NCBI GenBank assembly: GCA_016842045.1
Contig: JAEVEY010000186.1
Span: 1-39,173, forward strand
From: Candidatus Thermoflexus sinensis
GTDB lineage: Bacteria > Chloroflexota > Anaerolineae > Thermoflexales > Thermoflexaceae
DNA: 39,173 nt
Direction of reading: 5' to 3'
In this document: one piece after another, positions 15,143-37,663 of the stretch
How positions within the stretch are numbered: position 1 is the stretch's first letter
Layout of the letters: every line of letters starts with the position of its first letter
Made by a program: the position numbers and the translations under genes
Notes under the pieces: generated by a model
What the model saw: the letters and a program-made list of their open reading frames with translations, nothing else
Told to the model about the DNA's origin: nothing
The model's database searches: none

Positions 15143-15282
15143 TAGGACTTACGCAGTTCGTTTCCCATGGGGGCTTTGGGGGCGGAGCGGGGTGCCTTCG
15201 GCGCCCCGCTCCGCCCCCAAAAAGGATTTTGGGGTGGGGCCATTCCGTTCCACCTTTAGAGCTTTCAACTGCGTAACTCCTA
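15143..15282. mobile_element. MITE-like element, family A copy 1
   Basis: TIR taggacttacgcagtt ... aactgcgtaactccta; flanked by direct repeat atgtt / atgtt; contains hairpin 15175-15221 (22+3+22). Confidence 0.8.
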
Positions 15283-15296
15283 ATGTTTTGAGGCTT

Positions 15297-15376
15297 GCCC
15301 TGTTGCGATCCTGGCGGTGCCCGCCCGGGTTCGGCGTTTGCCCCACCCCCCGAAGGCCCCCAGCTTGCAACAGAGC
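15297..15376. mobile_element. MITE-like element, family B copy 1 (short form)
   Basis: gccctgttgcgatcctggcggtgccc ... cccccagcttgcaacagagc; near-repeat tttgaggct / tttgagact in the flanks. Confidence 0.65.
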
Positions 15377-15573
15377 GTTTGAGACTCATGGTAGCATCAG
15401 ACAGCGCATGACTTGATTTCTTTCTTTTCATCCTCCTCCCTACGGGTCTTCAGGCCAGGGGAAAGAGGATGAAAAATCTCTCTTCACCCTCGTCGCGCAA
15501 CGGGTCTTTTTTGCACGGCTTGCAGGATGAAAGGACGGCAGAACAGGTGGAGCTCAAGGATGGAGGCTGATTC

Positions 15574-16764
15574 ATGACCGAACGGCTCTACTGGCTGGAT
15601 CCCTACCTGCAACAATTCACCGCCACAGTTGTATCGCTCACCGAGCACAACAGTCAACCCGCTGTCATCCTGGATCGGACGGCGTTTTATCCGACCGGCG
15701 GCGGACAGCCTCATGATCGGGGAACCCTGAACGGGATCCCGGTGGTGGAGGTGATCGAGCGGGAAAGCGATGGGGCCATCCTTCACGTCCTGGCTCGCCC
15801 GCTGGAGGCGCGGGAGGTGGAGGGCCGCATTGATTGGGAACGCCGCTTCGATCATATGCAGCAGCACACCGGCCAGCACATCCTCTCCCAGGCGTTCCTG
15901 CGGATCACTGGGGCGCAAACGGTGTCCTTCCACCTGGGGGAAGAAGTGGTCACCATCGATCTGGATCAGGTCGGATTCCCACCCACGGCCGTCGAAGCGG
16001 TGGAAGAGCTGGCCAATCGGGTGGTCCTGGAGAACCGGGAGGTGTGGGCCCGGTTCGTGGAAGCGGAGGAGGCGGAAGGCCTGAGCTTACGTCGCCCGCC
16101 GAAGGTGGAAGGCCGAATCCGGATTGTCGAAGTGGCGGATTTCGATCGGAGCGCGTGCGGAGGGACCCATGTGCGACGCACAGGGGAGGTGGGGCCCATC
16201 AAGATCGTGAAGCTGGAACGGCGAGGCAATGAAACCCGGGTGAGTTTCCTCTGCGGCTGGCGAGCGCTCCGGGATTACGGGAGGAAGCATCGCCTCCTTC
16301 TGGAATCCGCAGGATCCCTCAGCGTGGGTGAGGCGATGTTGCCCGAGGCCATCCGGGCGCTGCAGGCCGATCTGAAAGAAGCCCGGAAGGCGCTGATGGC
16401 CCTCCAGGAGCTCTATCTGGATCTCGTTCTCCCCTACCTCGAGCAAAGGGTTCAGCCCGCTTCCTTTGGAGAGGTCCTCACCTACGTGTGGCCTCAGCTA
16501 CCTTCCGGCCTCCTGCCCCGACTGGCCCGACGGCTGAGCGAGGGACGTCCCCGTCTGGTCCTCCTGGCCGCTGGGGGCGCGGATGGCCTCCTCATTGTCG
16601 CCTGCGGCCCGGGGGTCCCTGTGGATGCCCGGGAGGTCCTGAGGCGTATCCTCGGGCGGCTGGGCCTGGAGGGAGGGGGCGGCCGCCCGGATTACGCTCA
16701 GGCCCCTGTTCCCCGTGTGGATCTGCAAGCGCTTCAACGAGCCCTGAGCGAAGCGATCGGGTGA
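15574..16764 (+). CDS. Alanyl-tRNA editing protein (AlaX-type, with DHHA1-like C-terminus)
   Basis: RTAFYPTGGGQPHDRGTL; HMQQHTGQHILSQAF; FDRSACGGTHVRRTGEVGPIKI. Confidence 0.93.
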   Translation: MTERLYWLDPYLQQFTATVVSLTEHNSQPAVILDRTAFYPTGGGQPHDRGTLNGIPVVEVIERESDGAILHVLARPLEAREVEGRIDWERRFDHMQQHTGQHILSQAFLRITGAQTVSFHLGEEVVTIDLDQVGFPPTAVEAVEELANRVVLENREVWARFVEAEEAEGLSLRRPPKVEGRIRIVEVADFDRSACGGTHVRRTGEVGPIKIVKLERRGNETRVSFLCGWRALRDYGRKHRLLLESAGSLSVGEAMLPEAIRALQADLKEARKALMALQELYLDLVLPYLEQRVQPASFGEVLTYVWPQLPSGLLPRLARRLSEGRPRLVLLAAGGADGLLIVACGPGVPVDAREVLRRILGRLGLEGGGGRPDYAQAPVPRVDLQALQRALSEAIG

Positions 16765-16777
16765 GCTCGATTGTTCA

Positions 16778-16810
16778 GATGGGGCGGACGGCGAAGCCAT
16801 CCGCCCCATC
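16778..16810. terminator. Bidirectional hairpin between convergent alaX and aminotransferase genes
   Basis: gatggggcggacggc-gaa-gccatccgccccatc (14/15 pairs). Confidence 0.65.
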
Positions 16811-16814
16811 CACT

Positions 16815-17972
16815 TTATGTCCTCAACCGCCGAAGGCGGGCCACCGCCTCGCGGAGGGTCTCCTCTCGTTTGCAAAAGGCAAACCGAACCTGCGTGCGCC
16901 CGCGATCCGGATGGGCGTAGAAACTGGAGCCGGGCACCACCGCCACCCCGATCTCCCGGACCAGGCGCATCGCGAAGGCCATGTCATCCTCCGTTCCGAG
17001 GGCCCGGAAATCGGTCATCACATAATATGCTCCCTGGGGCCACCACACCTCGAACCCCAGCTCCTCCAGCGCCTCCACCAGCAGATGCCGGCGTCGATCG
17101 TAATCCGCCCGCAGCTGCTCATAGTAAGCCATAGGGAACTGCAGCGCCACGGCGCTGGCTTCCTGGAGCGGGGCGGGGGCACCCACCGTGAGGAAATCAT
17201 GGACTTTCCGGATCGCGTCGGTGAGATCCTCAGGGGCAATGCACCATCCGATGCGCCATCCGGTCACCGCATAAGACTTCGACATCCCGCTGATGGTGAC
17301 CGTTCGCTCCCACATCCCGGGCAATGTGACGATGGGAATATGGCGATGTCCATCGTAAACAATGTGCTCGTAGATCTCATCGGTGATGGCGTAAACATTG
17401 TAACGCTGGCACAGCTCGGCGATCCAGCGCAGCTCCTCCTCTGAGAACACATGGCCTGTCGGGTTATGGGGCGTGTTGAGGATGATCGCCCGGGTCCGGC
17501 GGGAGAAGGCGCGGCGCAGCTCGTCGGGATCGAAGGTCCATGATGGTGGACGCAGGGGGACATAGATCGGCTTCGCCCCGCTGATCCAGGTATCGGGGCC
17601 GTAGTTCTCGTAGAAGGGCTCGAAGATGATGACCTCGTCCCCAGGGTTCAGCAGAGCCAGCAGGGTGGCGATCATGCATTCGGTGGCTCCGCAACACACG
17701 GTGATATGACGTTCCGGATCAAGGGCCATCCCGTAAAAACGACGATATTTCTCGGCGATCGCTGCTCGCAGTCGGGGGCTCCCCCAGGTAATGGCATACT
17801 GGTTATAGTCCTCCAGGATCGCCCGCGCGGCTGCCTCTTTCAGGGCTTCGGGGGCCGGGAAATCCGGGAACCCCTGAGCCAGGTTGATGGCCCCGTATTG
17901 ATGCGCCCACCGGGTCATCTCCCGGATCACGGATTCCGTGAAATGCTGCACCCGTTCGGCCACACGAGACAT
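16815..17972 (-). CDS. Pyridoxal-phosphate aminotransferase class I/II
   Basis: GAINLAQGFPDFPAPE; NTPHNPTGHVFS; TISGMSKSYAVTGWRIGW (PLP Lys); RFAFCKREETL. Confidence 0.95.
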   Translation of the reverse strand: MSRVAERVQHFTESVIREMTRWAHQYGAINLAQGFPDFPAPEALKEAAARAILEDYNQYAITWGSPRLRAAIAEKYRRFYGMALDPERHITVCCGATECMIATLLALLNPGDEVIIFEPFYENYGPDTWISGAKPIYVPLRPPSWTFDPDELRRAFSRRTRAIILNTPHNPTGHVFSEEELRWIAELCQRYNVYAITDEIYEHIVYDGHRHIPIVTLPGMWERTVTISGMSKSYAVTGWRIGWCIAPEDLTDAIRKVHDFLTVGAPAPLQEASAVALQFPMAYYEQLRADYDRRRHLLVEALEELGFEVWWPQGAYYVMTDFRALGTEDDMAFAMRLVREIGVAVVPGSSFYAHPDRGRTQVRFAFCKREETLREAVARLRRLRT

Positions 17973-18127
17973 CCTGGCCCCTCCGGATAGGGATCTGGGA
18001 TGGCATGGACGCACACCGATCCTCGCCGGCGACCTCCATCGTCCTTCTCTTCCTGCCGCGCCGCAGCAGGAAGAGGCCCACGAAAAGTGAGGGTGGTGGG
18101 GCCGCTTTGCTGCTTGCCCCACCACCC

Positions 18128-18237
18128 TAATGCTCCCTCCAGATTTGATTTTTGGTTTTGGTCCCCTGGGGGTTTGGGGTGGGGCCATTGGCCCACACCC
18201 TCTTATATCCTCAAAACAAATCTGGATGAAGCACTAA
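18128..18237. mobile_element. MITE-like element, family D
   Basis: taatgctccctccagatttgatttt ... aaaacaaatctggatgaagcacta inverted ends; flanks accaccc / accacca. Confidence 0.65.
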
Positions 18238-18354
18238 CCACCAGGTTTACCCCGATGCCCAATAAGGTGCTGAGTCGATCTTCCCACTCGGGTTTTGGGC
18301 GCCGAATCGGCCACCGAAGGCACCTGGCCCTGCCTCCGAAAACGGCCCATCCCG

Positions 18355-19794
18355 CTAACGGGAAGGCGGGATCGGCCACTCGGGCAGGATGTAGGGAATC
18401 GACTCCGGAGGGGGGACCGGAGTCAGAAGATAGACATCCACCCAGCGATACCAGAGCACCAGATCCTCATCGTTATACCCCAGATCGATCCGGCGGCCGA
18501 TAATCCCACCGCCGGTATCGGCGGCCAGCCCCACCCCATAACCGGGCACATAAACCTTCCACCCCAGCCGGATCACCCGCGGGTCCACGGCCACAATCCC
18601 TCGCTGCATCGGCAACCCGGTCCGGGTGCGACCGAAATACGAAGCGGAGGGGTGAACCCCTGCTGTGGAAGGACTGTAGGAGGTGGCCAGCATGCGGATC
18701 CGTCGCCAGTATTCGATCGGCCCATCCGACGTTTCCAGCGTGCGCACCACGATCTTCGTCCCATAGACCCATACCCGGGGCTCTGGAGGCCGGATCAAGG
18801 TTTCATCGACGACCTCCCGTGCGACTTCCTGCCCGTTCTCATAGCGCACCCGGATCCGCCGTTGAAGCACGCCGTTTCGGCCGGGGGATCTCTGCACCCA
18901 GGTGTCCAGCTCCAGGTTAGGATCCGGCTCCCATACCGTCTGAAAGGGGACGGAAGTTTCCTCGATCTCAAAGCCTTCCGCCACGCGGATGACCCGCACG
19001 GTCTCTCCGCCCTGGAGCCGGCTTTCCTCGCCCGGGACCACCCGATCCTGGCCATGCAACGAGATCCCCAGCTCCCACAATAACTCTCGGACCGTGCGGG
19101 CGGTGGTGGAGATCACCTGGATGCGCCCATCCGCTTCCACCGTGATGGGACGAGCCCGGAACAGTGAGACCTGCATGCCACCGTCCAGCGGCGTTTCGGG
19201 TCCAGGCAACAATCGATCCGCCGGGCCCAGAAGCACACCGGCCTCGCGCAGCGCCGCTCCCACCGTGGGCGCGGTCGACCAGATCACGCGTCGCGCTCCG
19301 TTTTCCAGACGCACCACCAGTGGAGCGGACCGCACGATCCGGATCTCCTGGGGAGGCCGCTCGCCATCGAGCGCTGGAGGTCCATCCTCTCTCCGCCGGC
19401 CATCCACCCACAGGACATCCCCGGGTCCCATGGCGATCCCGGCTTCCGCCAGGATCGCCTGGGGATCGGAATGAAGGGTATAAACCTGGACCTGGCGTGA
19501 AGGCTCTACGCCACGGCCCTCAATCAGGATTCGAACCGGTCTGGCCCGTCGGACCCGGATCGTCATCGGAGACTGGATCGTGTGCGTCAGGGGCGGGGAA
19601 ACGGCATCCTCGAGACGGAGCATCAGGCCAGCCTCCCGGAGCACGTCCCCCACTGTTCGTTGATGAGTTCTAATGAAGAGAACCTGATCATCGAGGAGGA
19701 TGGTTACGGTCTGCTGGGAACGCCAGTAACCCCACAGGCAGAAAGCGCCCAGCCCGATCCAGGCGATCCATTTGAGAAGCGCCCATCGGTTCAT
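18355..19794 (-). CDS. Secreted/anchored DUF348-G5-3D domain protein
   Basis: Repeated RTVGDVLREAGLML.. / PTVGAALREAGVLLGPADRL.. / RTVRELLWELGISLHGQDRV DUF348-like units; G5-like region; 3D domain ATSYSPSTAG..GIVAVDPRVIRLGWKVYVPGYG..AADTGGGIIGRRIDLGY. Confidence 0.9.
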   Translation of the reverse strand: MNRWALLKWIAWIGLGAFCLWGYWRSQQTVTILLDDQVLFIRTHQRTVGDVLREAGLMLRLEDAVSPPLTHTIQSPMTIRVRRARPVRILIEGRGVEPSRQVQVYTLHSDPQAILAEAGIAMGPGDVLWVDGRRREDGPPALDGERPPQEIRIVRSAPLVVRLENGARRVIWSTAPTVGAALREAGVLLGPADRLLPGPETPLDGGMQVSLFRARPITVEADGRIQVISTTARTVRELLWELGISLHGQDRVVPGEESRLQGGETVRVIRVAEGFEIEETSVPFQTVWEPDPNLELDTWVQRSPGRNGVLQRRIRVRYENGQEVAREVVDETLIRPPEPRVWVYGTKIVVRTLETSDGPIEYWRRIRMLATSYSPSTAGVHPSASYFGRTRTGLPMQRGIVAVDPRVIRLGWKVYVPGYGVGLAADTGGGIIGRRIDLGYNDEDLVLWYRWVDVYLLTPVPPPESIPYILPEWPIPPSR

Positions 19795-19942
19795 TGCAGC
19801 ATGTGCGGAACCTGAAAGCCTCCGGCGCTTCCCTCCTGCAGGCCTCTGGGCCTTCGGGAAGGGAAAGCGCTTTTCAAGCCAGCGAGCTCTCGAAGAGGAC
19901 CCATCCTGATCGAAAACCCGCAACTCAAAAGAGCACACAAGG

Positions 19943-20078
19943 TAGGAGTTATGCAGTTCAGGGTCTTGCGAGAAGAGGTAGAATGGCCCGCCCCCTTTAG
20001 ATTTTGAGGGAGGAGTTTCGCGCCGAAGGAGCGCGACTCCCCCCAACCCCCAGGAGAAAACCAACTGCGTAACCCTTA
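19943..20078. mobile_element. MITE-like element, family A copy 3 (diverged, inverted)
   Basis: taggagttatgcagtt ... aactgcgtaaccctta; flanks caagg / taagg; interior agaatggcccgcccc matches the reverse complement of the copy 1 right arm. Confidence 0.7.
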
Positions 20079-20154
20079 TAAGGAAAACAGCGGCCGTGCG
20101 CCCCTTGTCGAGCCCGCCTCTCCCCACCGGCAATCCCTCGAACGGCTCCAGCCC

Positions 20155-20250
20155 GGCGCCCCTGCGGCGCGCGAACCGGGACGGCTTACCGTTGCTCCCT
20201 TCCGGGCCTGGCGGGGTTCACCGGGGTCCGCCGCGCAGGACCGGACTTTC
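20155..20250 (-). ncRNA. ffs: Signal recognition particle RNA (4.5S-type); boundaries approximate
   Basis: Minus strand contains ggtgaaccccgccaggcccggaagggagcaacggtaagcc, the SRP RNA helix-8 signature with GGAA tetraloop. Confidence 0.9.
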
Positions 20251-20819
20251 ATCACCGGGAAGGATCACCTGGGGGGGCCGCGCTAACCCTCGAAGGGGAT
20301 GTCAGCCCCGCGTCTGGCGGATTTCGGGTTCAGGGAACCGCCACCTCCCCGCCTGAGCACGGCCGCCAGCTTTAGCGTATCGGATTCCCCACCCGGTGTC
20401 AAGCCGAAGGTTTGAACCGTCCCAGCTAATGCCCCTAAGGCTCCTCCAGTGGCGACTGAGTGCAGGCTAAAGAAGGTCATCTTCCACCACCCGCCTCCCA
20501 GGAATCCAGGGGATCGGGATAAAATGCCCGCAGGAAAGAGCATCCCGATACATGCGATGGAGGATCCGCACACGGGGAGTAACGATCCCGACTGGCCCCA
20601 TTCGGTTCAGAGCCCTTGCGAAGAGGGGAAAGAGTCCTATCCCCCTCCTCACGGCCTCCAGGCCGTGGGGAAAAATGGAAAAAATATTTTTGGGGCCGAG
20701 CCACGCCCCCCTGGCGCGCGGCTCGGCCCCAAAAGCCCTCCGTAGAAAACCCGTGTGAGAGGCTCCTATCCGTATCGCGTTGCGTGAGAATGGCTGAACC
20801 GTTACCACGGAGGGATGAA

Positions 20820-21284
20820 ATGGGAACCGAAGAAGCACGCCTGCGCCCGGCGCGACCGGAGGATCAGGCGGTTATCCGTCGCCTGGTCCACCAGGCCCGG
20901 TTGAATCCCTTCGACCTGCACTGGTCCCGTTTCTGGGTCGTGGAGATCGCCGGGCAGGTCGTGGGAGCAGGCCAGATCCGACGTCACCGGGATGGCTCTC
21001 GAGAGCTGGCCTCCCTGGTGGTGGATCCCGCGTGGCAGGGCCGGGGCCTTGGGACCATGCTGGTGCAAGCTCTGATGGCTCAGGAACCCGGCCCCCTTTA
21101 TCTCGTGTGTCGGGCGGAACTGGAAGGCTTCTACCGGCGCTTCGGCTTTCGGAGGCTCTCGCGTCAGGAGATGCCCCCCTTCTTCCGGTGGATCGATCGA
21201 ATCGCCAAGCTGTTCCAGCGATCATGGATGGTGATGGGCTGGGGACCAGGGATCACCGTCAGGGATCAGCCGACCGAGGGGTGA
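20820..21284 (+). CDS. GNAT-family N-acetyltransferase
   Basis: LRPARPEDQAVIRRLVHQA; ELASLVVDPAWQGRGLGTMLVQALM acetyl-CoA-binding motif; SD cggaggg upstream of ATG 20820. Confidence 0.88.
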   Translation: MGTEEARLRPARPEDQAVIRRLVHQARLNPFDLHWSRFWVVEIAGQVVGAGQIRRHRDGSRELASLVVDPAWQGRGLGTMLVQALMAQEPGPLYLVCRAELEGFYRRFGFRRLSRQEMPPFFRWIDRIAKLFQRSWMVMGWGPGITVRDQPTEG

Positions 21285-21285
21285 A

Positions 21286-22047
21286 ATGAAAAGGACAGAG
21301 GAAATTCAACGCGAGTTTCTCTATGGGCGCCATGCCGTGCATGAGGCCCTGCGGGCCGGGCGACGTCGGATCTACCGGCTGCTGATTGCGGAAGGCCTTC
21401 AGCCCCGGCCGATCCTGGAGGAGATCCGCGCCATAGCGGTGGATCGCGGGATCCCGATCCTGTATGTGCCCCGGGCCCGCCTCGACGCCCTCACAGATAG
21501 CCATCAAGGAGTAATAGCGGAGGCTGATCCTTATCCCTATGTGGACCTGGAGCAGGCGTGGACGGAAAGCGCGGGCCGACCCGATCCACCCTTCTGGCTG
21601 GCCCTGGATTGCCTCCAGGATCCCCAGAATTTCGGCACGTTGTTGCGGACCGCGGAGGCCGTTGGGGTGCATGCAGTTCTGTTTCCCGAGCATCGCAGCG
21701 CCCGGGTGACGCCCGCTGTGGTGAACGCCTCCGCCGGTGCCGTGGAGCACCTCCGCGTGGTCCAGGTGACCAACCTGGCGCGGGCGCTGGAGCGATTGAA
21801 AGAGTGGGGGATATGGATCGTGGGTCTCCAGCAGGATCCCCGTGCGATCCGTTATGACCAGGCGGACCTCAGCGGCCCGATCGCTCTCGTGGTGGGCAAC
21901 GAGGAATCCGGCATTCGTCCGCTGATTCGGCGTGTCTGCGATTTCCTGATCTATCTTCCGATGCGTGGCCGGGTCGCCTCGCTGAATGCTGCCGCCGCCG
22001 GTGCCGTGGCCCTGTATGAAATCGCCCGGCGCAGGGATTTCCAATAG
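21286..22047 (+). CDS. rlmB: TrmH/SpoU-family RNA 2'-O-methyltransferase, RlmB-like
   Basis: FLYGRHAVHEALRAGRRRIYRLLIAEG; ALDCLQDPQNFGTLLRTAEAVGVHAVLFPEHRSA; VVGNEESGIRPLIRRVCDFLIYLPMRGRVASLNAAAAGAVALYE. Confidence 0.93.
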   Translation: MKRTEEIQREFLYGRHAVHEALRAGRRRIYRLLIAEGLQPRPILEEIRAIAVDRGIPILYVPRARLDALTDSHQGVIAEADPYPYVDLEQAWTESAGRPDPPFWLALDCLQDPQNFGTLLRTAEAVGVHAVLFPEHRSARVTPAVVNASAGAVEHLRVVQVTNLARALERLKEWGIWIVGLQQDPRAIRYDQADLSGPIALVVGNEESGIRPLIRRVCDFLIYLPMRGRVASLNAAAAGAVALYEIARRRDFQ

Positions 22048-22268
22048 CCGGGTTCCCGCCTATCCCTTGAAGGGCGCCGGCGGTGATTCGGTCGGGAGGC
22101 TGGTCTTCCGTCCCGGGTTGGCTTCAGGATCCGGGCGGTTGGGGCCGGCCGGACACCAGGAATTGTCCATTCAGCCTCAGAACTCATTCGGACCTCGGGG
22201 GATTTACGCGGTCAGGGATGATCAGCTCGCGCTCTTCGATCGACGATCCCGATTCTCCCATCGAACAC

Positions 22269-22297
22269 TTGTGAACTGAGAAGTTTGCTGATATAAT
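22269..22297 (+). promoter_or_regulatory. Sigma-70-type promoter of the bpsA-speD gene
   Basis: TTGTGA (22269-22274) - 17 nt - TATAAT (22292-22297). Confidence 0.75.
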
Positions 22298-22541
22298 ATG
22301 CGTTTGCGGTCGGGCTTTTCGCATTGATTATGCAATTTGCCCCTTTCCCTCCGGGGATTTTCGGGGTGGCGGGGCACCTCTGGCGGCTTCGCTCACCCCA
22401 AACCGGACAACATCCCTGCGCTGGAAAGCGGCGCGGGAGGGGGCAGGAATCCTGAGGGTGGGGCAGCCCGAATCGGATACCGCTGCCCTCCAGAGACTCA
22501 CTTCCGACCCTACTCGCAGGCGGCCATCCCAGAGCCGCCAG

Positions 22542-22637
22542 ACTTGCAAACCAAATAGGCAGCCGTTCCGGCTTTTGGCATACGTCGGGTGCCTCCGATG
22601 ATGCCGGGTGCGGAACCCGTGCTGCCTATTTGCTTTG
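22542..22637 (+). promoter_or_regulatory. Long structured hairpin in the 5' leader of bpsA-speD
   Basis: caaaccaaataggcagc ... gctgcctatttgctttg pair 16/17, with inner gttccg/cggaac and ggcat/atgcc pairings. Confidence 0.6.
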
Positions 22638-22716
22638 TAGGGGACGGTGCGTGCGGAGCCGTTTCCCTTCCGGCGCCGGAGGGCGCCGACTACATTCCGG
22701 GGAAAGGAGGTGAACG

Positions 22717-24240
22717 ATGGCGGGGGAGATCCTGACCCTGGGGCGCTCGGAGCTGGCCCGGCTCCTGCGCGCGATCCTGCGGGAGGGGGATCCCTGGCAG
22801 GCGGCTGGCACCGCCGGGCTTCCCTTTCCACGAGTGGTCGAAGGGATCAAGCAGCTGCTGGATGCCGGAGCCCTTGCCTTTGATGGGAACCGCCTGTATC
22901 TGACCGAGCGGGGCCGGATCCTGGCCCGAGATCTGGGCGTTGCGGTGGCTCCGGACATCCGGTGTCTCGCCTGTCAGGGGACCGGGATCGACCTGGGCTT
23001 TCTCCAGGAGGTGACCCGGCGCTATGAAGAACTGGTCAGGGGACGTCCCGAACCCCTGGCGGCTTACGACCAGGGCTATCAGACCATCGAGTCGGTGATG
23101 CGTCGGGTGGCCCTGATGGTCGCCCAGGGGGACGTGGAGGGCAAGGATGTGGTGGTGCTGGGGGATGACGACCTGGCCAGTCTCGCCCTGGCCCTGACCG
23201 GGTTACCCCGCTCGGTCGTGGTCATTGAGATCGACCAGCGCCTGTGCGCCTTCATCGAGCAGGCCGCCCGTCGCGCGGGCCTGAACATCACAGTCTATTG
23301 TCACAGTCTGACGGACCGCCTTCCCCCCGAGCTCCTGGGACGGTTTGACACCTTCCTGACCGATCCGACCGAGACGGAACATGGCCTCCTGCTGTTCCTG
23401 GAGAAAGGGTTCATGTGCCTGAAGAAGGGGGAGGGCCGTGCGGGCTACTTCGGTATCACCCGCATTGAGTCGAACATCAGCAAGTGGCATGTCTGGCAGC
23501 GGGAGCTCCTGAACCGGCACGCCATCACGTTCACCCATATCCTGCCAGACTTCAGCCTTTACGCCAACTGGGAGGAGCCCGGAGAGCAGCCCATCCCGGA
23601 TCTTCCGCCCTTCGCCCGTCCCTCGCCGGTGCCCTGGTATCGCTCGACATTCTTCCGGGTGGAGACCCTGCCCGAATTCCAGCCGCCGGAGGATTATGTG
23701 ATCGAAGGAGGGCGGGAGCTTTACGAGGATGAGGATGCGATCGATAAAGTGTGGCGCAGCCCGGATGTGGACACCGCGATCACGTCTTCAGTGATGACGC
23801 CGGCTCCAACCCCCTTCCCCACCCAGCTGACTCTGGGGCGGCACGTGATCGCAGAGTTCTGGAAGTGCCAGAACCGGGAGCCCCTGCGGAACCTCAAGCA
23901 GGTTCTGGAGCTCGCCGTGCGCAGGGCCGGCGCCACGCTGCTGAACATGAAGATCCACCGCTTTGTCCCGGACGGATTCTCGGCCCTGGTGCTGCTCGCG
24001 GAGTCTCACATCTCCCTGCACGCCTGGCCGGAATACGCTTACGTGGCGGTCGATGTGTTCACCTGCGGGGAGGCGGATCCGGAGGTGATCATCGAGGTGC
24101 TCAAGGACTACCTGCAGCCCGCCGAGTCCGCTCAGATCACCCTGGAGCGCGGCCTGGGACCTCTGATGGTCCTTCCGGCCCTGCGCCCCGAAACCGAGGC
24201 GGCTTCCCTGGGCTCTTCCTCGATTCCCCTGGGGATTTAA
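22717..24240 (+). CDS. BpsA-like branched-chain polyamine synthase fused to S-adenosylmethionine decarboxylase (SpeD)
   Basis: N-terminal winged-helix-like region and Rossmann-like VLGDDDLASLALALTG, FLTDPTETEHGLLLFLEKG; C-terminal LLAESHISLHAWPEYAYVAVDVFTCG (SpeD pyruvoyl-Ser and Cys motifs). SD ggaaaggaggtgaacg before ATG. Confidence 0.9.
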   Translation: MAGEILTLGRSELARLLRAILREGDPWQAAGTAGLPFPRVVEGIKQLLDAGALAFDGNRLYLTERGRILARDLGVAVAPDIRCLACQGTGIDLGFLQEVTRRYEELVRGRPEPLAAYDQGYQTIESVMRRVALMVAQGDVEGKDVVVLGDDDLASLALALTGLPRSVVVIEIDQRLCAFIEQAARRAGLNITVYCHSLTDRLPPELLGRFDTFLTDPTETEHGLLLFLEKGFMCLKKGEGRAGYFGITRIESNISKWHVWQRELLNRHAITFTHILPDFSLYANWEEPGEQPIPDLPPFARPSPVPWYRSTFFRVETLPEFQPPEDYVIEGGRELYEDEDAIDKVWRSPDVDTAITSSVMTPAPTPFPTQLTLGRHVIAEFWKCQNREPLRNLKQVLELAVRRAGATLLNMKIHRFVPDGFSALVLLAESHISLHAWPEYAYVAVDVFTCGEADPEVIIEVLKDYLQPAESAQITLERGLGPLMVLPALRPETEAASLGSSSIPLGI

Positions 24241-24317
24241 AGGAACAATCTGATCCCCTGAGGCCTTCAGGTTCTGGGAAGGATCCGTGCGAAGGCCTTC
24301 CCCAGGGGGAGAGCTTC

Positions 24318-28482: not shown

Positions 28483-28733
28483 CGCCACGGGATCCCAGGA
28501 CATGCCGAAAGGAAAAGCCCTTCCCTCGATCTCTCCCCAGCCCTGAGGGTCCAGGAGACGGGGAGTGAAATCCCTTTCGGGGTGGGTGGATCCGCCCAGA
28601 ACGGACCACCTGCCCTGCATCCCCTGGATCAGGGGATCGGCCGTTTGCCCGGAGTCCGGTCCCCTTTTCAGAACCCCTCGGCTTCTCCGCCAATCCTGCT
28701 TCCCCGCACCTTCCGGCTCCGGGAAGGGAGCAT

Positions 28734-29189
28734 CTATGAGGAGGTCTCCGACAGGAGGCGGCGCACGATCTCCTGGACCTCCCGACCATCCGCCCGGCCG
28801 CGGACCCTGGGCATCAATCGCTTCATCACCTCGCCCAGCTGGGCCGGAGAAGTGGCGCCGATCTCCGCGATTACCTCCCGCGCCATCGCCTCGATCTCCT
28901 CCCGGGTCAGCGGCTGTGGGAGGTAAGCGAGCAGGACCTCCAGTTCCGCCCGCTCCGATGCGAGCCGATCCGGCCGATTGGCCTTTTCCAGCTCCTCCAG
29001 TGTCTCGCGACGCCGCTTGACCTCATTCTGAAGCACCCGCAGGATCTCATCCTCGCTCAGCGGGCGTGCGGCTTCCACCTCCGCCATGCGAATCGCCAGC
29101 AACGCCATCCGGATGGCCGTCTTGCGGGGCTCATCCCCCGCACGCATCGCTGCCTTCAGGTCCTCCTGGAGCTGTTCCTTTAAACCCAT
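28734..29189 (-). CDS. yqeY: GatB/YqeY-domain protein
   Basis: LKEQLQEDLKAAMRAGDEPRKTAIRMALLAI; LLAYLPQPLTREEIEAMAREVIAEIGA; GEVMKRLMPRVRGRADGREVQEIVRRLL. Confidence 0.95.
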   Translation of the reverse strand: MGLKEQLQEDLKAAMRAGDEPRKTAIRMALLAIRMAEVEAARPLSEDEILRVLQNEVKRRRETLEELEKANRPDRLASERAELEVLLAYLPQPLTREEIEAMAREVIAEIGATSPAQLGEVMKRLMPRVRGRADGREVQEIVRRLLSETSS

Positions 29190-29439
29190 CGATTCTCGCC
29201 TCCTCGAGGATATTCCGCCTGATCTCAGCTCATCGAAGTGGAGGGGTCGGTTCGACCTCGATGATGACGATCCTTACCGGTAGAGCAGAGCGTGGGAGAT
29301 AATGGGCATGGTGATCATGCTGGCCACGCTCATTATCTTTTTCCTGAGCGCTCTGAGCAAGTGCGGAAAGATTTCTCGGAACGTGCGTGGTGCCCTTTCA
29401 TATCTCTCTCAGATCGAGGCCAATGGCGTAAGTCTTAAC

Positions 29440-29557
29440 GAGTGTCTGAGAATTTGGGTAGTGTTCACATGGTCTGTGGTCCGCTTTTATGCCCCTCCCC
29501 ACGGCCCTTCGGGCCGTGGGGAGGAGGCTTGAACCCAATGCGAATTTTCGGACACTC
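29440..29557. mobile_element. MITE-like element, family C
   Basis: gagtgtctgagaatt ... aattttcggacactc inverted ends; flanks tcttaac / tcttaca; carries a perfect hairpin at 29494-29524. Confidence 0.65.
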
Positions 29558-29594
29558 TCTTACATTCAGATGGAGTCTTCATGAAAGGAGTGCG

Positions 29595-30398
29595 ATGACC
29601 TGGGATCCGGTGGAAGTGTTTCGAATAGTGGAGAGGATCTCATGGATCCGGGATCTCCACCTCTATGAAGAGGTGGGTTCTACCAATGACATCGCCCGGG
29701 ATCTCGGGGAAATGGGAGCGCCGGAGGGCGTGGTGGTGCTGGCCGATGCTCAGCGGGCCGGGCGAGGGCGGGCCGGGCGTTCCTGGTGGACCCCGCCCGG
29801 GGTAGCGCTGGCTGTTTCGATCCTGGTGCGCCCACGCCGCCCGCTCGAGGACTGGCCTCAGCTGACGATGATCGCCGGGCTGGCCGCGGTGGAAAGCATT
29901 GAGGCCATTGGCTGCCCCGCGGGTCTGAAATGGCCCAACGACATCATGATCCCTCCGGGTCCGAGCCGGGAAGCGCCGGCGACGGCCTGGCGGAAAGCCG
30001 GCGGGATCCTGGTGGAGTCCGTTCCCCCCGCCTTCGCTGTGGTGGGGATTGGGATGAATGTGAACACCCCCCTCGAGGCGGCACCCCCTGAACTCGCGGA
30101 GACCCTGGGTAGCATCCACCAGACCCTGGGGCGCACCGTCGCCCGGCTCACCGTGCTGGAGAGCTTGCTGGAGGCCTTCGCTCGCCTGTATATCGAGTGG
30201 AGCGAGGGCGCCAGTGTGTTAGAACGCTGGGCGGCCCGCCTGATCATGCTGGGCCAGCCGGTCCGAATTTATGCCTCCGGGGAAGTCTGGGAAGGCATCG
30301 CGGAATCCGTGAGCGCGGATGGCGGGCTCTGGTTGCGCCTTCCGGATGGACGCCGGAAATATTTCCTGGCGGGCGATGTCTCCCTGCGCTGGTCATAA
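29595..30398 (+). CDS. birA: Biotin--[acetyl-CoA-carboxylase] ligase
   Basis: LYEEVGSTNDIARDL; VLADAQRAGRGRAGRSWWTPPGVALAVSILV; LKWPNDIMI; GILVES; VGIGMNVN. Lacks the N-terminal HTH of E. coli BirA. Confidence 0.95.
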   Translation: MTWDPVEVFRIVERISWIRDLHLYEEVGSTNDIARDLGEMGAPEGVVVLADAQRAGRGRAGRSWWTPPGVALAVSILVRPRRPLEDWPQLTMIAGLAAVESIEAIGCPAGLKWPNDIMIPPGPSREAPATAWRKAGGILVESVPPAFAVVGIGMNVNTPLEAAPPELAETLGSIHQTLGRTVARLTVLESLLEAFARLYIEWSEGASVLERWAARLIMLGQPVRIYASGEVWEGIAESVSADGGLWLRLPDGRRKYFLAGDVSLRWS

Positions 30399-30678
30399 GG
30401 AGACCGGGGGCCACCGAAAAGTTCTGCGGGGAGCTCCGATCATTGGGGGGCACCCTCGCCAATCCTGCTCCCCTGGCAGGAGCCGGAGACGGAAAGGGCT
30501 CTGGCGGAAGTCCATCCTGACAAACCCGGGACCCGCCCGTCACGCCTCATAACCGCCACCTTTGCCGAATCTCACCTAACTGACTATAATTGGGGAAAGC
30601 TATTCGCCGAAGATCCGAGCGGCGCTGAACGCCAACACATCGCCGAAAGAACCGAATCTGCTCTCAGGAGTATCCAGA

Positions 30679-31884
30679 ATGAATGAAGAGACCCGGCAGG
30701 ATCGCCCCGAAAACGCCAGCGCGATGACCGAGATGGGCGAATGGCTGGAGATGTCCCCCTCTTCGCTTCGGCGGGGAGACATCGTGCGGGGAACGATCGT
30801 CCGGATCACCCCGACGGAGATCCTGGTGGATATCGGAATGAAGGCGGAAGGGGTGATCACGGGCCGTGAGCTGGAACGGATGCCCCGGGAGATCCGCGAG
30901 GTCCTGCAAGAGGGGGATGTGATCCAGGTTCAGGTCGTGAGCCCCGAGGATCGCAGCGGGAACATCCTGCTTTCCCTCCAGCGAGCGCTCATGGAGGAAG
31001 ACTGGCAGCAGGCCCGCCGGTTGATGCAGGACGGGGAGATCCTGGAGCTCACCGTCAATGGTTATAACAAAGGCGGACTGGTGGTGAAAGTTGGTCGGCT
31101 TCGCGGGTTCATCCCCGCCTCCCATGTGGTTCCCCAGGAGGCCGGGGAGGAAAAGCTACCCGTGGAGCAACGACTGAAGCGTCGGGTGGGTCAGAAGATT
31201 TACGCCCGGATCATCGAGGCGGATCCGGAGGCCAACCGGCTGATCCTCTCCGAACGAGCAGCGCAGCAGGAGCTTCGGCGTCGTCAAAAGGAAGAACTGC
31301 TCGCCCGTCTCGAGCCGGGGATGCGTGTGAAGGGGCGCGTGATCAGCCTGGCGGACTTTGGGGCCTTCGTTGATCTGGGCGGCGCGGATGGCCTGATCCA
31401 CATCAGCGAGCTCTCCTGGCGTCGGGTGAGCCACCCCCGCGAGGTCCTCTCGGTCGGCCAGGAGATCGAGGTGGAAGTCATCAGCGTGGATCGGGAACGG
31501 AGGCGGATCGCCCTGAGCCGTAAACGGGTGGAGCCGGATCCCTGGCAGCAGGCGATAACCCAGTTGCGGGAAGGGCAACTGGTTGAGGCTGTGATCACCC
31601 GCCTGACCAACTTCGGGGCCTTCGCGGCGCTGAAAGAATTCCCGGGGGTGGAGGGCCTGATTCATATCTCCGAGCTGGCCGAACACCGGGTTCATCATCC
31701 GAAAGAGGTAGTTCGGGAAGGGGAAGAGCTGGTGGTGCGCCTGATCCGCATCGACCGGGAGAACCGGCGGCTGGCCCTCAGCCTGCGCCGGGTCGCTTCC
31801 CCGGAATACGCGATGCTGGATTGGGAGATGGCCCAGGCTCGCCTCCGAGCCAGCGAGGAGAGGGGCCCAGAGGAAGCCTCCTGA
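30679..31884 (+). CDS. rpsA: 30S ribosomal protein S1-like, four S1 domains
   Basis: Four S1 repeats, e.g. GMRVKGRVISLADFGAFVDLGGADGLIHISELSW and GQLVEAVITRLTNFGAFAALKEFPGVEGLIHISEL. Confidence 0.92.
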   Translation: MNEETRQDRPENASAMTEMGEWLEMSPSSLRRGDIVRGTIVRITPTEILVDIGMKAEGVITGRELERMPREIREVLQEGDVIQVQVVSPEDRSGNILLSLQRALMEEDWQQARRLMQDGEILELTVNGYNKGGLVVKVGRLRGFIPASHVVPQEAGEEKLPVEQRLKRRVGQKIYARIIEADPEANRLILSERAAQQELRRRQKEELLARLEPGMRVKGRVISLADFGAFVDLGGADGLIHISELSWRRVSHPREVLSVGQEIEVEVISVDRERRRIALSRKRVEPDPWQQAITQLREGQLVEAVITRLTNFGAFAALKEFPGVEGLIHISELAEHRVHHPKEVVREGEELVVRLIRIDRENRRLALSLRRVASPEYAMLDWEMAQARLRASEERGPEEAS

Positions 31885-32164
31885 GCATCCTTCCAACCGG
31901 ACCTCAGGCGAACTCGCAGGTAGTTCCTTCAAAGCCTTATCATGAGGGCATGGCCCGGGGCAGGAATTCTCCCTCCCCTTGCGGCAAAACTGCAACGGGA
32001 GGGGAGAACGGTTGTGCGGCCTGTTTGTCCAGAGCTCTGATCTCAACCTTCGCTGCCGAACGCAGGAGGGCGGGGCGCCTTCAGCGCCCCGCTTTCTGTA
32101 TCTCATCCGAGCGGGAAATGCTGTGCGTGTGGGGGCTGGGGCCCCCTTTAGATAGAGCCTCGAC

Positions 32165-32270
32165 GTTGCTCTGCCACAAACTGGGGGCTGGATTGATCCC
32201 CTCCCCACGCCGCTTCGCAGCGTGGGGAGGGGGCAAACGCTGAACGCAAGCGGGCACCGCCAAGATCAGC
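32165..32270. mobile_element. MITE-like element, family B copy 3 (inverted relative to copies 1 and 2)
   Basis: gttgctctgccacaaactgggggct ... caaacgctgaacgcaagcgggcaccgccaagatc matches the reverse complement of copies 1 and 2; 9-bp direct repeat agcctcgac at both edges (32156-32164 and 32271-32279). Confidence 0.7.
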
Positions 32271-32483
32271 AGCCTCGACTTCTTTAAATGGGGAATTGCA
32301 CCATTATCCTTCTCCTATGATTTTTCGGGCCAGGTGCTTTCAGCCCCCAGAAAATCCAGCAACAAAGCCATCAACAGCGCAACGCCGAAACTAACTGAAA
32401 AAGGGGCGGCGTGTTATACTAAGATCAGAACCGGCTGCGCGTTCGCCCCTGGAAATCCTGCAGTCGGTTTGAAGGAGGACGCT

Positions 32484-34952
32484 GTGTCCAGCAAGCTGGA
32501 TCGGTTTACCCAGCGGGCCAGGCGGGTGCTGGCGTTGGCTCAGGAGGAAGCCGAACGCCTGAACCATACCTACATCGGCACCGAACACCTGCTCCTGGGC
32601 CTGGTCAAAGAAGAGAACGGAATCGCCGGCCAGGTGCTCCGACGCCTGGGGGTGACCCCCCAGAAGGTGGAGGAGATGGTCCTTCGGATGTCGGGGCCCG
32701 GCCGCCGCACCCCCCACAGCAAGCCCGATCTGACGCCCCGGATCCGGCGGGTGATCGAGCTGGCCGTCGATGAGGCCCGACGGATGGGGCATCATTATAT
32801 CGGCACGGAACACCTCCTCCTCGGGCTGGTCCGCCTGGGCGATGGGATGGCCGTGGATATCCTCAAGAGCCTGGGCCTGTCCCTGGAGCAGATCCGGCGG
32901 GAAACCAATCGAGCGATCCAGGAGACGACCGCAGCCGCCCGGCCACGGCGGGAGCGCCCGAAGACGCCCCTGCTCGACCAGCTGGCCATCGATCTGACCG
33001 CGCTGGCCGAGGAAGGGAAGCTGGATCCGGTGATCGGGCGGGAGCAGGAGATCGAGCGGGTGATCCAGATCCTCTCCCGTCGGACCAAGAACAACCCCGC
33101 GCTGATCGGGGAGCCCGGAGTGGGCAAGACCGCCATCGTGGAGGGGCTGGCGCAACGTATCGTGGCCGGCGAGGTCCCCGAGCCGCTCCTCAGCAAGCGG
33201 GTCCTGCAACTGGACGTGGCCTCCCTGGTGGCAGGGACGATGTATCGAGGCCAGTTTGAGGAGCGCCTGAAACGGGTGCTGGAGGAATTGAAGAGCGCCG
33301 ACTGCATCCTGTTCATTGACGAGATGCACATGCTGGTCGGCGCAGGGGCGGCCGGCAGCGCGGTGGACGCCGCCAATATCCTGAAGCCGGCCCTCGCCCG
33401 GGGGGAGATCCAGTGCATCGGGGCCACAACCTTCGATGAGTATCGCAAGTATATCGAGAGCGATGCGGCGCTGGAGCGCCGGTTCCAGCCGGTAGTGGTG
33501 GAGGAGCCCACGATTGAAGAGACCATCGAGATCCTGCGGGGCATCCGCCATCGTTACGAGGAGCATCACAAGCTGACCATCACGGATGAAGCCATCGAGG
33601 CCGCAGCGCGGCTCTCGGCCCGCTATATCCCCGAGCGCTATCTTCCTGATAAGGCCATTGACCTGATCGATGAGGCGGCAGCCCGGGTGCGGATGTATAA
33701 GGCCTCCCGCTGGCCGAGCCTCCAGAAGGTCTACACGGAGCTACGAACCGTGCAGCGCGAGCGGGAGGAGGCCCTGGCGGAGCGCCGCTATGAGGATGTG
33801 GCGGATCTGAAGGTCCGGGAGGAGGAGCTCCAGGCGCAGCTCCAGCAGCTGCGCATGCGCAGCGAGATCGACGAGGGGCCGAAGGTCACCGCCGAGGACA
33901 TCGCGGAGGTCGTCTCCATGTGGACGGGCATCCCGGTGAGCCGCATCGCCGGGGATGAATCCCAACGCCTGCTCCAGATGGAGGAGGAGCTCAAGAAGCG
34001 CATCGTGGGGCAGGACGAGGCCATCAGCGTGATCTCCCGGGCGGTGCGGCGGGCCCGCGCCGGCCTGAAGGATCCCCGCCGGCCCATCGGCTCTTTCATC
34101 TTCCTGGGGCCCACCGGGGTGGGCAAGACCGAGCTCACAAAGGCCCTGGCGGAGTTCCTCTTTGGCTCCGAGGACGCCCTGCTCCAGCTGGATATGTCCG
34201 AATTCATGGAACGGCATAACGTCTCCCGTCTGGTCGGGGCGCCCCCGGGCTACGTCGGCTATGAGGACGCGGGACAGCTCACCGAGTATGTCCGCCGTCG
34301 GCCTTACTGCATCATCGTTTTCGACGAGATCGAGAAGGCCCACCCCGATGTCTTTAATATGCTCCTCCAGATCATGGAGGAAGGCCGGCTGACGGACGCC
34401 CGGGGCCGCAAGGTGGACTTCCGCAACACGATTATCATCATGACCTCGAACATCGGCGCCGAGACCATCCGAAAGGCCCATCTGGGGTTCCCGACCCAGA
34501 AGCAGGAGGAGGTGGACCTCGAGCGGCGCTATCGGGAGATGCGGGAGAAGCTCCTGAACGAGCTGCGCAAGGTCTTCCGACCGGAGTTCCTCAACCGGGT
34601 GGATCAGGTGGTGGTCTTCCGGCCGCTGAGCCGGGAGGATATCCTGAAGATCGTGGATCTGGAGCTGGGCAAGGTGGCGGCCCGCTTGAAGGAGCACCGC
34701 CTGAGCATTGAGGCCACACCGGCCGCCAAGGCCTTCCTGGCCGATAAGGGATATGACCCCGAATACGGGGCGCGACCGCTACGCCGGGTGATCCAGAACC
34801 TGGTGGAAGACGCACTCTCCGAGGGGATGCTGGCCGGGAAATTCAAGCCGGGGGATACGGTGGTGATCGATCTGGAGGGGGATCAGCTGGTCTTCCATCC
34901 AAAAGGGATCGAGGAGCTTACCCCACCTCCCGCGCTGATTGTCGAGGGATGA
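32484..34952 (+). CDS. clpC: ATP-dependent Clp protease ATP-binding subunit ClpC
   Basis: Double Clp N domain, Walker [16 protein letters not shown] and [18 protein letters not shown], ClpB D2-type C-terminus. GTG start 32484 with SD gaaggagga. Confidence 0.96.
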
Positions 34953-34962
34953 TCTTGCTTCC

Positions 34963-35005
34963 AATGCGGAGGGCGGGGCGCTGAAAGCGCCCCGCCCTCC
35001 GCATT
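34963..35005. terminator. Bidirectional perfect hairpin between convergent clpC and ubiD
   Basis: aatgcggagggcggggcgct-gaa-agcgccccgccctccgcatt, 20+3+20 perfect. Confidence 0.8.
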
Positions 35006-36471
35006 CACTCCAGCCCATACTCCTTCCACCGCCGATCCACCAGCGCCCGGATCTCGGGGCTCATTTCGATCCGCTCCGGCCAGCCCCGCGGATGTCCCTC
35101 CTCAGGCCCCTTGGCCGTGGCGTCAATGCCGATTTTCCCCCCATACGCCCGCAGGGGCGCGACGTGATCCAGATGATCCACGGGCCCTTCCACAATCACC
35201 ACATCCCGCTTCCAGTCCACATTCCCCAGCACCTGCCACGCCACCTCCGATAAGTTGTGGACGTCCACCCAGCCATCCACGACCACAATGCATTTGGCCA
35301 GGCTCAGCAATCCCAGGCCCCACAGGCCGAAGATCACCTTACGGGCGTGGCCCGGGAAACGCTTGCGGATGCTGACGATCACCAGGTTGTGGAAAACCCC
35401 TTCGGCGGGCATGTTGTAATCCACCACCTCGGGGAGGAACAGGCGGATCAGCGGGAGGAACAGCCGTTCGGTGGCCTTGCCCATCCAGTAATCCTCCATC
35501 GGCGGGCGGCCGACAATCGTGGTGGGATAGATGGGATCCCGCCGATGGGTGATCGCTGTGACGTGCATCACCGGGAAGGGCTCCGGCGGCGTGTAATAGC
35601 CGGTGTGATCGCCGAAGGGGCCCTCCATGCGTTGTTCCCGGGGATCGATGTAGCCCTCGATAACGATTTCCGCGTGGGCCGGAACATCGAGCGGTTGGGT
35701 GACACAGGGAACCATCTCCACGGGCCGCCCCCGAAGCCATCCGGCGAGCAGATATTCATCGATGTCCGGGGGAAGCGGCGCGCTTGCTGCCCAGATACAG
35801 GCGGGATCTCCCCCCAGCGCCACGGCGATCGGGATCCGTTCCACCCCCATCTCCCGGGCGGCCCGTTCATGCTCCGCGCCGCCCTTGTGGATCTGCCAGT
35901 GGACCCCCAGCGTGCGCTCGTCGTGAACCTGGAGGCGATACAACCCGACGTTGCGCTTGCCGGTGCGTGGATCACGGGTGATCACCTGGCCCAGCGTGAT
36001 GTAGCGGCCGGCATCCTTCGGCCAGCACTTCAGGATCGGCAGACGTTCCAGCGAGGGGCGCTCCGTCTCCACCACCTCCTGACAGGGTGCCCGGGAAACC
36101 CGTCGAGGACCGAGCCCGATGCTCCGCAGGGTTCCCAGCACCTGCCCCAGCCTTTCGAAGGCTTCGCCCAGGCCCTGGGGGAGTTCCGGGCGCAACAACG
36201 CCTCCAGCCGCTGTCGGAGCTCCTCCAGGTCTTCAACCCCCAGCGCCCAGGCCATGCGCCGATGGGTGCCGAACAGGTTAATGACAACGGGTATCCCTTT
36301 GCCATCGACGTTTTCGAACAGAAGCGCCCTGTTGCGGGCGGGCGGGCCTTTCATCACCCGGTCGGCGATCTCTGTGATCTCGAGCTCGGCGGAGACCGGG
36401 ACGCGGATACGGACCAGCTCTCCAGCTTGCTCCAGCCGGTTGAGGAAATCCCGAAGATCCCGATACGCCAT
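35005..36471 (-). CDS. ubiD: UbiD-family decarboxylase
   Basis: YRDLRDFLNRLEQAGELVRI; GPFGDHTGYYTPPEPFPVMHVTAITHRRDPIYPTTIVGRPPMED; CIVVVDGWVDVHN. Confidence 0.96.
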   Translation of the reverse strand: MAYRDLRDFLNRLEQAGELVRIRVPVSAELEITEIADRVMKGPPARNRALLFENVDGKGIPVVINLFGTHRRMAWALGVEDLEELRQRLEALLRPELPQGLGEAFERLGQVLGTLRSIGLGPRRVSRAPCQEVVETERPSLERLPILKCWPKDAGRYITLGQVITRDPRTGKRNVGLYRLQVHDERTLGVHWQIHKGGAEHERAAREMGVERIPIAVALGGDPACIWAASAPLPPDIDEYLLAGWLRGRPVEMVPCVTQPLDVPAHAEIVIEGYIDPREQRMEGPFGDHTGYYTPPEPFPVMHVTAITHRRDPIYPTTIVGRPPMEDYWMGKATERLFLPLIRLFLPEVVDYNMPAEGVFHNLVIVSIRKRFPGHARKVIFGLWGLGLLSLAKCIVVVDGWVDVHNLSEVAWQVLGNVDWKRDVVIVEGPVDHLDHVAPLRAYGGKIGIDATAKGPEEGHPRGWPERIEMSPEIRALVDRRWKEYGLE

Positions 36472-36517
36472 CCGATCGCCTCCTCTGAGTCGCTGTTCCT
36501 GATTGTGACCTGGGTTT

Positions 36518-36627
36518 GCCCTGTTGCGATCCTGGCCGTGCCCCCTTGAGTTCAGAGTTTTCTCCTCCTCACGCCGCTTCGCGGCGTGAGGAGGAGCGTA
36601 GATCGAGCCCCCAGTTTACAACAGGGC
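36518..36627. mobile_element. MITE-like element, family B copy 2
   Basis: gccctgttgcgatcctggccgtgccc ... cccccagtttacaacagggc; internal perfect hairpin 36562-36596 (16+3+16). Confidence 0.75.
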
Positions 36628-36939
36628 AAGCCGGGTTAATCATAACGCAATTTGCCCTCCATCCCTCCGGAGACTTTCAGCCCGGGAAGATGATCTGAGG
36701 GGTCCCTCCATTTCCTGGACTCTGGACCAGGCGTGCTGGTCGGCTGGCCGTCTGGATCTTCCCCAGAGGGGAGGGGTTCCCCTCCCCTCTCTCCGTGACC
36801 CAATGGGCTGCGGGGAGAGGGGGAATGGACACGTTCTGGGACAGGCGGGACCGCCCGGGGTGGCCCCGCCTGCGTTGGCTCTTTAGAATGGGCCAATGCC
36901 GTTATAATGGAAGTAACCCGGAATACCGAGGAGGTCAGG

Positions 36940-37368
36940 ATGCCCATTGTGCGCAAAGTTCAGGGGGTGCTGTATCGGGTGCAGGATCTGCCACGGGCCA
37001 AAGCCTTCTACGGGGAAACCCTGGGCCTGCCGGTGCGTGGGGAGGACCCCGAGGGGCGATGGGTGGAGTTTGGCCCGCCGCGTGGGCCGCGGATCCTGCT
37101 GCATCAGAGCCCAGAGGGAGCGGTGGGAAATGCTGGGGGTGGCGCCCTTTTTGAGGTGCGCAACGCCCGGCGCGTCCTCAACCGCCTGAAGCGCCAGGGG
37201 GTTCGAGTGGGAGATCTCGTCGAGATCCCGGGCGTGATGGTACTGGGGACGTTCTACGACCCGGATGGGAATCCCCTGCACGTGGTTCAGTCGTTGCTCC
37301 CGAAAGCTCCTCGACGTCGGAAGGCCCCGGAGGAAGGGGAAACAGGGCCTGTTGAGGGAAGCGCTTAG
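36940..37368 (+). CDS. VOC-family (glyoxalase/bleomycin resistance) protein
   Basis: VLYRVQDLPRAKAFYGETLGLPVRGEDPEGRWVEFG; FYDPDGNPLHVVQ; SD gaggaggtcagg before ATG 36940. Confidence 0.9.
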   Translation: MPIVRKVQGVLYRVQDLPRAKAFYGETLGLPVRGEDPEGRWVEFGPPRGPRILLHQSPEGAVGNAGGGALFEVRNARRVLNRLKRQGVRVGDLVEIPGVMVLGTFYDPDGNPLHVVQSLLPKAPRRRKAPEEGETGPVEGSA

Positions 37369-37398
37369 AGCCACTGACAGTCCCCTTCAGCAAGAGCT

Positions 37399-37429
37399 TC
37401 GGGGCAGGCAGCGGAGCCGCCTGCCCCGA
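37399..37429 (+). terminator. Intrinsic terminator after VOC gene
   Basis: tcggggcaggcagc-gga-gccgcctgccccga followed by gttgttttt. Confidence 0.7.
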
Positions 37430-37521
37430 GTTGTTTTTCTCCTTGTTCATCGTGGAGGGTGGGGCCGCTTTGGCGGCCCCATCCTCCACTCTTCCCCCAT
37501 CGTAAAGCAGCTTAAAATTAG

Positions 37522-37663
37522 TAGGACTCACGCAGTTCGTTTCCCATGGGGGCAAGGATTTTTCTCCCCCCTCCCCACGGCCCAAAGGGCCGTGGGGAGG
37601 GGGGAGAAAGGGGGGTGGGGCCATTCCGTTCCACCTTTAGAGCTTTCAACTGCGTAACTCCTA
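37522..37663. mobile_element. MITE-like element, family A copy 2
   Basis: taggactcacgcagtt ... aactgcgtaactccta; flanked by attag / attag; contains a perfect 23+3+23 hairpin at 37561-37609. Confidence 0.85.

Follow-up and report, generated by a model that had tools for sequence, protein, structure and literature searches.

Several described systems come close to the elements reported here. Miniature inverted-repeat transposable elements (MITEs) derived from bacterial insertion sequences (ISs), such as MITEAba12, are short, non-coding, and present in high copy number, and they are reported to combine terminal inverted repeats (TIRs) matching those of an IS with a target duplication of fixed length (PMC6382973). 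Repetitive extragenic palindromic (REP) sequences and REPINs, which go with REP-associated tyrosine transposases (RAYTs) (PMC3733652), are many short GC-rich palindromes lying between genes. We analyzed a contig of 39,173 nucleotides from the hot-spring bacterium Candidatus Thermoflexus sinensis (JAEVEY010000186.1; hereafter the window, contig C47 of a 3.44-Mb assembly of 212 contigs, G000), in which two copies of one MITE family, family A, share 16-bp TIRs and carry different central hairpins, HP1 in copy 1 (15143-15282) and HP2 in copy 2 (37522-37663). We are fairly confident in the overall reading that family A is a MITE mobilized by an IS701-type transposase, with an ancestral core of two hairpins that are lost by replication error, copy exchange helping. 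Compared to MITEs of the MITEAba12 type, family A stands out by a core of two long perfect hairpins, by four states of hairpin loss, and by the occurrence of the core in several TIR families. Unlike REP/REPIN sequences, the Thermoflexus hairpins are internal parts of TIR elements that have target duplications. The source genome yielded no Y1 transposase, and no GTAG/CGTC tag was seen beside the hairpins, whose flanks are GGGGGC, AAGGATTTT, and GGGGGG.

Both ends of each copy follow the 16-bp TIR pattern TAGGA[C/G]TYACGCAGTT. The right arms (54 nucleotides) of the two copies are identical and the left arms (40 nucleotides) 90% identical, in agreement with an earlier note, made from the letters alone, which had described one element with near-identical arms and two unrelated hairpins, one before and one after a shared AAGGATTTT. 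Copy 1 begins with the left TIR TAGGACTTACGCAGTT (15143-15158, plus strand), followed by HP1, TTTGGGGGCGGAGCGGGGTGCC-TTC-GGCGCCCCGCTCCGCCCCCAAA (15175-15221, plus strand), whose 22-bp arms contain one mismatch (T.G) and whose TTC loop reads TTC or GAA in other copies. The spacer AAGGATTTT follows (15222-15230, plus strand), and HP2, located at this point in two-hairpin copies, is missing after it; the adjoining GGGGTGGGGCC (15231-15241, plus strand) appears to be a remnant of the third strand that follows HP2 in complete copies. The right TIR lies at 15267-15282 (minus strand). In copy 2, the left TIR TAGGACTCACGCAGTT (37522-37537, plus strand) precedes AAGGATT (37554-37560, plus strand), directly before which HP1 is missing (junction GGGGGC^AAGG), and HP2, TTTCTCCCCCCTCCCCACGGCCC-AAA-GGGCCGTGGGGAGGGGGGAGAAA (37561-37609, plus strand), has perfect 23-bp arms and an AAA loop; AAGGATTTT (37554-37562) here shares two T residues with the hairpin, and the right TIR occupies 37648-37663 (minus strand). 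Perfect 5-bp direct repeats flank each copy, atgtt at 15138-15142 and 15283-15287 and attag at 37517-37521 and 37664-37668. Folding compared to that of shuffled sequences gave z values of -8.9 for HP1 and -10.1 for HP2.

All four combinations of the two hairpins occur among family A copies. Copy states and hairpins were counted in about 1.14 Mb of the genome, a sample weighted toward element-rich contigs. Over roughly 1 Mb, nine copies had both hairpins, 44 only HP2, three only HP1, and five none, a tally in which the 142-nucleotide HP2-only copy L268:18385 was miscounted as having both; a stricter filter gave 8, 45, 4, and 5, respectively, HP2-only being the commonest form. Two-hairpin copies measure 188 to 189 nucleotides. 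The hairpin-free copy L061:4587-4679 measures 93 nucleotides (CATGGGGGCAAGGATTTTGGGGTGGGGCC) and has exactly the junctions that the earlier note had predicted for a hairpin-free parental element. In family B, which has the same TIRs and other arms, both hairpins were present in 18 copies, HP1 alone in seven, HP2 alone in one, and neither in eight; the families were defined afresh, those called B and C in the earlier note having come without coordinates. Two presence/absence characters that occur in every possible combination cannot be explained by single events alone, and either recombination or recurrence is required; probably both occur.

The core order, HP1, an AT-rich spacer, HP2, and GGGGGG[T/A]GGGG, is common to families A, B, and C and is also found in families G and D, whose TIRs are unrelated. 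Five of the six copies of family G (TIR CTTTGGACAAAC) have both hairpins, while family D comprises empty copies, copies with HP1, copies with HP2, and one copy with both at a contig edge. Several two-hairpin copies in the same order were found in SKYG36 (G003), a congener about 88% identical; G001, G002, G005, and G008 are the other Thermoflexus congeners named below. Related hairpins are thus present in MITEs with other TIRs, as had been noticed earlier. Their sequences diverge family by family, as those of inherited parts would.

Several hairpin-poor copies carry half stems fused at short G-runs, and the loss of HP1 involves at least four different junctions. At L282:10668, GGAG marks the point where one half of HP1 runs into one half of HP2; L256:6958 retains the HP2 base (GGGGGAGAAAGGGGGG), and L282:3643 retains TTTGG of HP1 (CTTTGG^ATTTTT). 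Further scars were found at L289:15581 (GGGGGCT^GATTTTT), in family B at L070:14276 (GGGGG^ATAAAGGGGGG), and at L073:16465. Together with the core order shared across families and the family-wise divergence of the hairpin sequences, these scars argue that the two-hairpin form is probably ancestral and that copies lose hairpins by deletion. The ancestral family A core would read TIR - CATGGGGGC - HP1 - AAGGATTTT - HP2 - GGGGGGTGGGGCC - TIR, and the two copies in the window most likely differ because each has lost the hairpin kept by the other.

Several observations weigh against this reading. The commonest junctions, GGGGGC^AAGG for HP1 and TTTT^GGGG for HP2, are scarless and without clear microhomology, and by themselves they agree equally well with insertion and with deletion; at these two clean junctions the direction of change is one that we infer to be deletion. 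Among the orthologous sites found, none had a two-hairpin copy in one strain opposite a one-hairpin copy in the other; the eight family A pairs shared between G000 and G002 were all HP2-only in both. The genomes rich in these elements are draft metagenome-assembled genomes (MAGs), and no gene for the transposase was found in the source genome assembly, which may reflect loss of the gene or an assembly gap.

For the loss itself we propose a replication mechanism, in which the palindromes would fold on single-stranded, probably lagging-strand, DNA. The polymerase would then skip one or both hairpins, with the jump made at the base of the hairpin or from one G-run to another. Copies with one hairpin or none would result, and some of these would still transpose. 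Template switching from arm to arm may in addition flip the loops and copy mutations between the arms.

HP2 also forms part of a larger motif. Its purine arm and right flank make up the mirror repeat GGGGAGGGGGGA-GAA-AGGGGGGTGGGG (37594-37620, plus strand), in which the third-strand base opposite A is T, or A in other families. By a mirror test and the motif classes of PMC4666352, HP2 with its flank qualifies as a class II purine-motif intrastrand triplex motif, and the strand is predicted to be able to fold accordingly. At least 10 triplets were found in 71 of 254 hairpins of the sampled genome, copies that are not independent of one another, and in none of 1,270 flank-shuffled controls; HP1 would form only about five, by inspection. 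Triplex motifs in bacteria are deletion prone and unstable in Escherichia coli, slippage being a proposed cause (PMC4666352). The TM-ECO motif of that study, which was linked to deletions and instability, likewise consists of a pyrimidine arm, a purine arm, and a mirrored G-rich third strand with T or A opposite A, but the motif described here has a longer stem and another sequence and sits inside MITEs, whereas TM-ECO was reported without association to mobile elements (PMC4666352).

One-hairpin and empty forms could instead have arisen mainly through recombination or gene conversion between MITE copies of the same genome, which would carry shared junctions from lineage to lineage, with no need for repeated deletion. 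This explanation allows for each hairpin having been lost originally and in part overlaps with our own reading. It draws on the same HP1-loss junction occurring on different backgrounds, for example in the CTGG/GGAAG sublineage, and on two chimeras, L075:1-160, which joins the core of family A to an end of family D, and L073:7166-7330, in which the right half of family A is joined to another family. However, each hairpin must in any case have been lost at least once to begin with, and scars with unique junctions represent single deletions, so we regard recombination as a possible but not the favored main source. The exchange of hairpins suggested in the earlier note is to this extent borne out by a few clear two-family chimeras, while the separate insertion of cassettes that it proposed is not supported.

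The loops and arms may carry a further trace of replication. In the source genome, family A HP2 loops read AAA in 22 copies and TTT in 22, HP1 loops TTC in five and GAA in six, and the two orientations of the family B HP1 loop were counted 10 and 14 times, the two main loop forms being reverse complements of each other. Eight insertions are common to G000 and G002, their flanks sharing 87 to 100% identity (mostly 92 to 100%), and at six of these eight sites the 3-nucleotide loop is inverted with little else changed. Symmetric arm changes, in a count in which copies with one common ancestral change enter more than once, numbered 3 for family A HP2, 1 for family A HP1, 11 for family B HP1, and 9 for family B HP2, compared to 0.08, 0.05, 0.6, and 0.6, respectively, expected at a uniform rate. 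Loop inversion is a described signature of interstrand template switching (PMC8794818), and the combination of inverted loops and mirrored arm changes bears that signature. As in the published cases, the reverse complement of the loop stands where the loop was, and arm changes are paired; what differs is a very high apparent frequency, observed here in the multicopy mobile elements of a single bacterium.

The loop inversions, as opposed to the hairpin losses, might also be an artefact of assembly, in which a random path was taken through a repeated palindrome. The exact 22:22 ratio would suit such an origin, the elements are high-copy with many contigs ending in them, both assemblies are drafts, and the coverage of G002 is only about 3x according to its contig name. 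Yet at most of these insertions, other variable positions to the left and right of the loop are unchanged (a T/C site in seven of the eight pairs, for instance), a k-mer of about 27 nucleotides is enough to fix the orientation against the flank, and the symmetric arm substitutions constitute a separate trace. We consider an artefact a serious but less likely alternative, and template switching remains our preferred explanation of the inversions.

The scenario of the earlier note, in which hairpin cassettes move on their own and entered a parental MITE without hairpins at two sites, accounts for the empty form at L061:4587-4679, for hairpins of one kind in MITEs with different TIRs, for loops in both orientations, and for the two clean junctions, where insertion could have happened, but it is very improbable in view of a hairpin position and order that are constant in all families, half-stem deletion scars, an HP2 insert (TCTCC..AGAAAGG into TTTT^GGGG) that would have to differ from the palindrome itself, the lack of any duplication around the hairpins, the failure to find a Y1 transposase in the source genome, and hairpin sequences that vary with the family. 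The last point comes close to the gradual divergence of one ancestral hairpin that the note itself had named as contrary to its proposal, and two-hairpin copies in the same order in family A, in other TIR families, and in a congener, together with the scars, speak against it as well. At four sites with hairpins outside recognized MITEs, comparison with the congeners gave no clean insertion of a bare hairpin, the intergenic regions aligning poorly. We recommend that the proposal of hairpins moving on their own be either abandoned or tested again.

As for mobilization, we found in G001 a 1,107-bp IS (L142:1300-2406) with the family A TIR at both ends. Its 308-amino-acid transposase matched NF049921 at 377.5 bits (cutoff, 250), which places it in the IS701 family, and PF13546 at 47.7 bits (cutoff, 27). 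This single intact copy has no flanking target duplication. Judging from the identical TIRs, an IS701-family transposase is the likely mobilizer of family A, which would be a non-autonomous MITE moved in trans. The profile of the Y1 transposase (PF01797), a candidate enzyme according to the earlier note, had no match in G000, while positive controls matched; Y1/RAYT mobilization was rejected on this ground, and the REP/RAYT idea is left unsupported. Over all elements, the target duplication was most often 5 bp long (n = 50), followed by 6 to 7 bp (n = 27), and none was detected for 59. The same IS701-type TIRs also delimit elements of 1,302 to 1,304 bp in G005 (L313:299-1600, L314:322-1625, and L315:316-1619), in which a TnpB/Cas12f1-like open reading frame (PF07282, 49.5 bits) takes the place of the DDE transposase, a TnpB gene being carried by a non-autonomous transposon of the DDE type. 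TIR pairs of this size class numbered about eleven, and three of four such TnpB-bearing elements, including the L313, L314, and L315 copies, have a 5-bp target duplication.

The resemblance of the two copies is clearly not fortuitous: a BLAST search of the source genome with copy 2 returned 91 matches, about 40 of them full length. The pattern TAGGA[CG]TYACGCAGTT, with at most one mismatch, matched 409 times in the source genome (reversed-pattern control, 0), 318 times in G002, and 2 to 34 times in each of the other seven congeners; the expansion of the TIR element is confined to G000 and G002. Both window copies are absent from the syntenic places in G001, G002, and G008 and thus look like recent insertions. 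In a search of 100 genomes, strong matches were found within the genus only, and two genomes from the class gave weak hairpin-level matches (E of about 1e-4). A scan of genome contigs with the HP2 pattern gave, among the matches listed, only Thermoflexus or Chloroflexota MAG records, and viral contigs had no exact HP2 match. G005, a single-contig congener, has four such hairpins in 400 kb. Within the body of literature searched, neither an IS701-type MITE nor a described Thermoflexus MITE was found.

The window contains further elements. A decayed family B MITE that shares the TIR type of family A and has HP1 only lies at 19943-20078 (minus strand), and a family D element with the other TIR (TAGTGCTTC..CAGATTTG type), hairpin-free (CCTGGGGG-TTTGGGGTGGGGCC), was matched by regular expression at 18128-18239 (plus strand; ends may be off by 1 to 3). 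Another MITE-like family, with TTTGC[C/T]CTGTTGC ends, is present at 36514-36630, 32166-32271, and 15292-15390, with an HP2-like hairpin in some copies and apparently none in one; the copy at 32166 is absent from all congeners compared. At 20580-20815, a decayed element with GTAAC..GTTAC ends and HP2-like and HP1-like hairpins adds another TIR family to those built around this core. Elsewhere in the source genome (L149:1224-2396), the core of a family B MITE is apparently interrupted by a different IS with a 322-amino-acid open frame (PF01609) and TTGCACAATA ends, of which G002 has related copies. A different, 40-nucleotide hairpin (GGGCAACTGC..GCAGTTGCCC) lies between two genes at 10008-10047; it shows a mirrored arm change and another loop in G002, and G001 is without it. 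Tandem repeat units of about 100 bp, up to 95% identical, occupy 6454-6690 beside a hairpin at 6705-6745, and related sequence recurs many times in G002. Neither HP1 nor HP2 was called as an intrinsic terminator; both lack a T-tract, and their stems run T..A, not A..T. The elements had no Rfam match, the window yielding only a bacterial large signal recognition particle RNA gene (20094-20362, minus strand).

These elements offer a natural set of many near-identical long palindromes. Hairpin loss, the flipping of loops, and the correction of arms, otherwise mostly studied in engineered constructs, can be counted in this set. An intrastrand-triplex motif inside a mobile element would be a simple route for the spread of such a motif, one not found in the earlier E. 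coli study. More speculatively, the double-hairpin/triplex core may be a module in itself that has acquired at least four unrelated TIR sets in Thermoflexus, with palindromes that flip and homogenize within strain divergence times, and it might thus report, in vivo, on template switching during replication in a thermophile.

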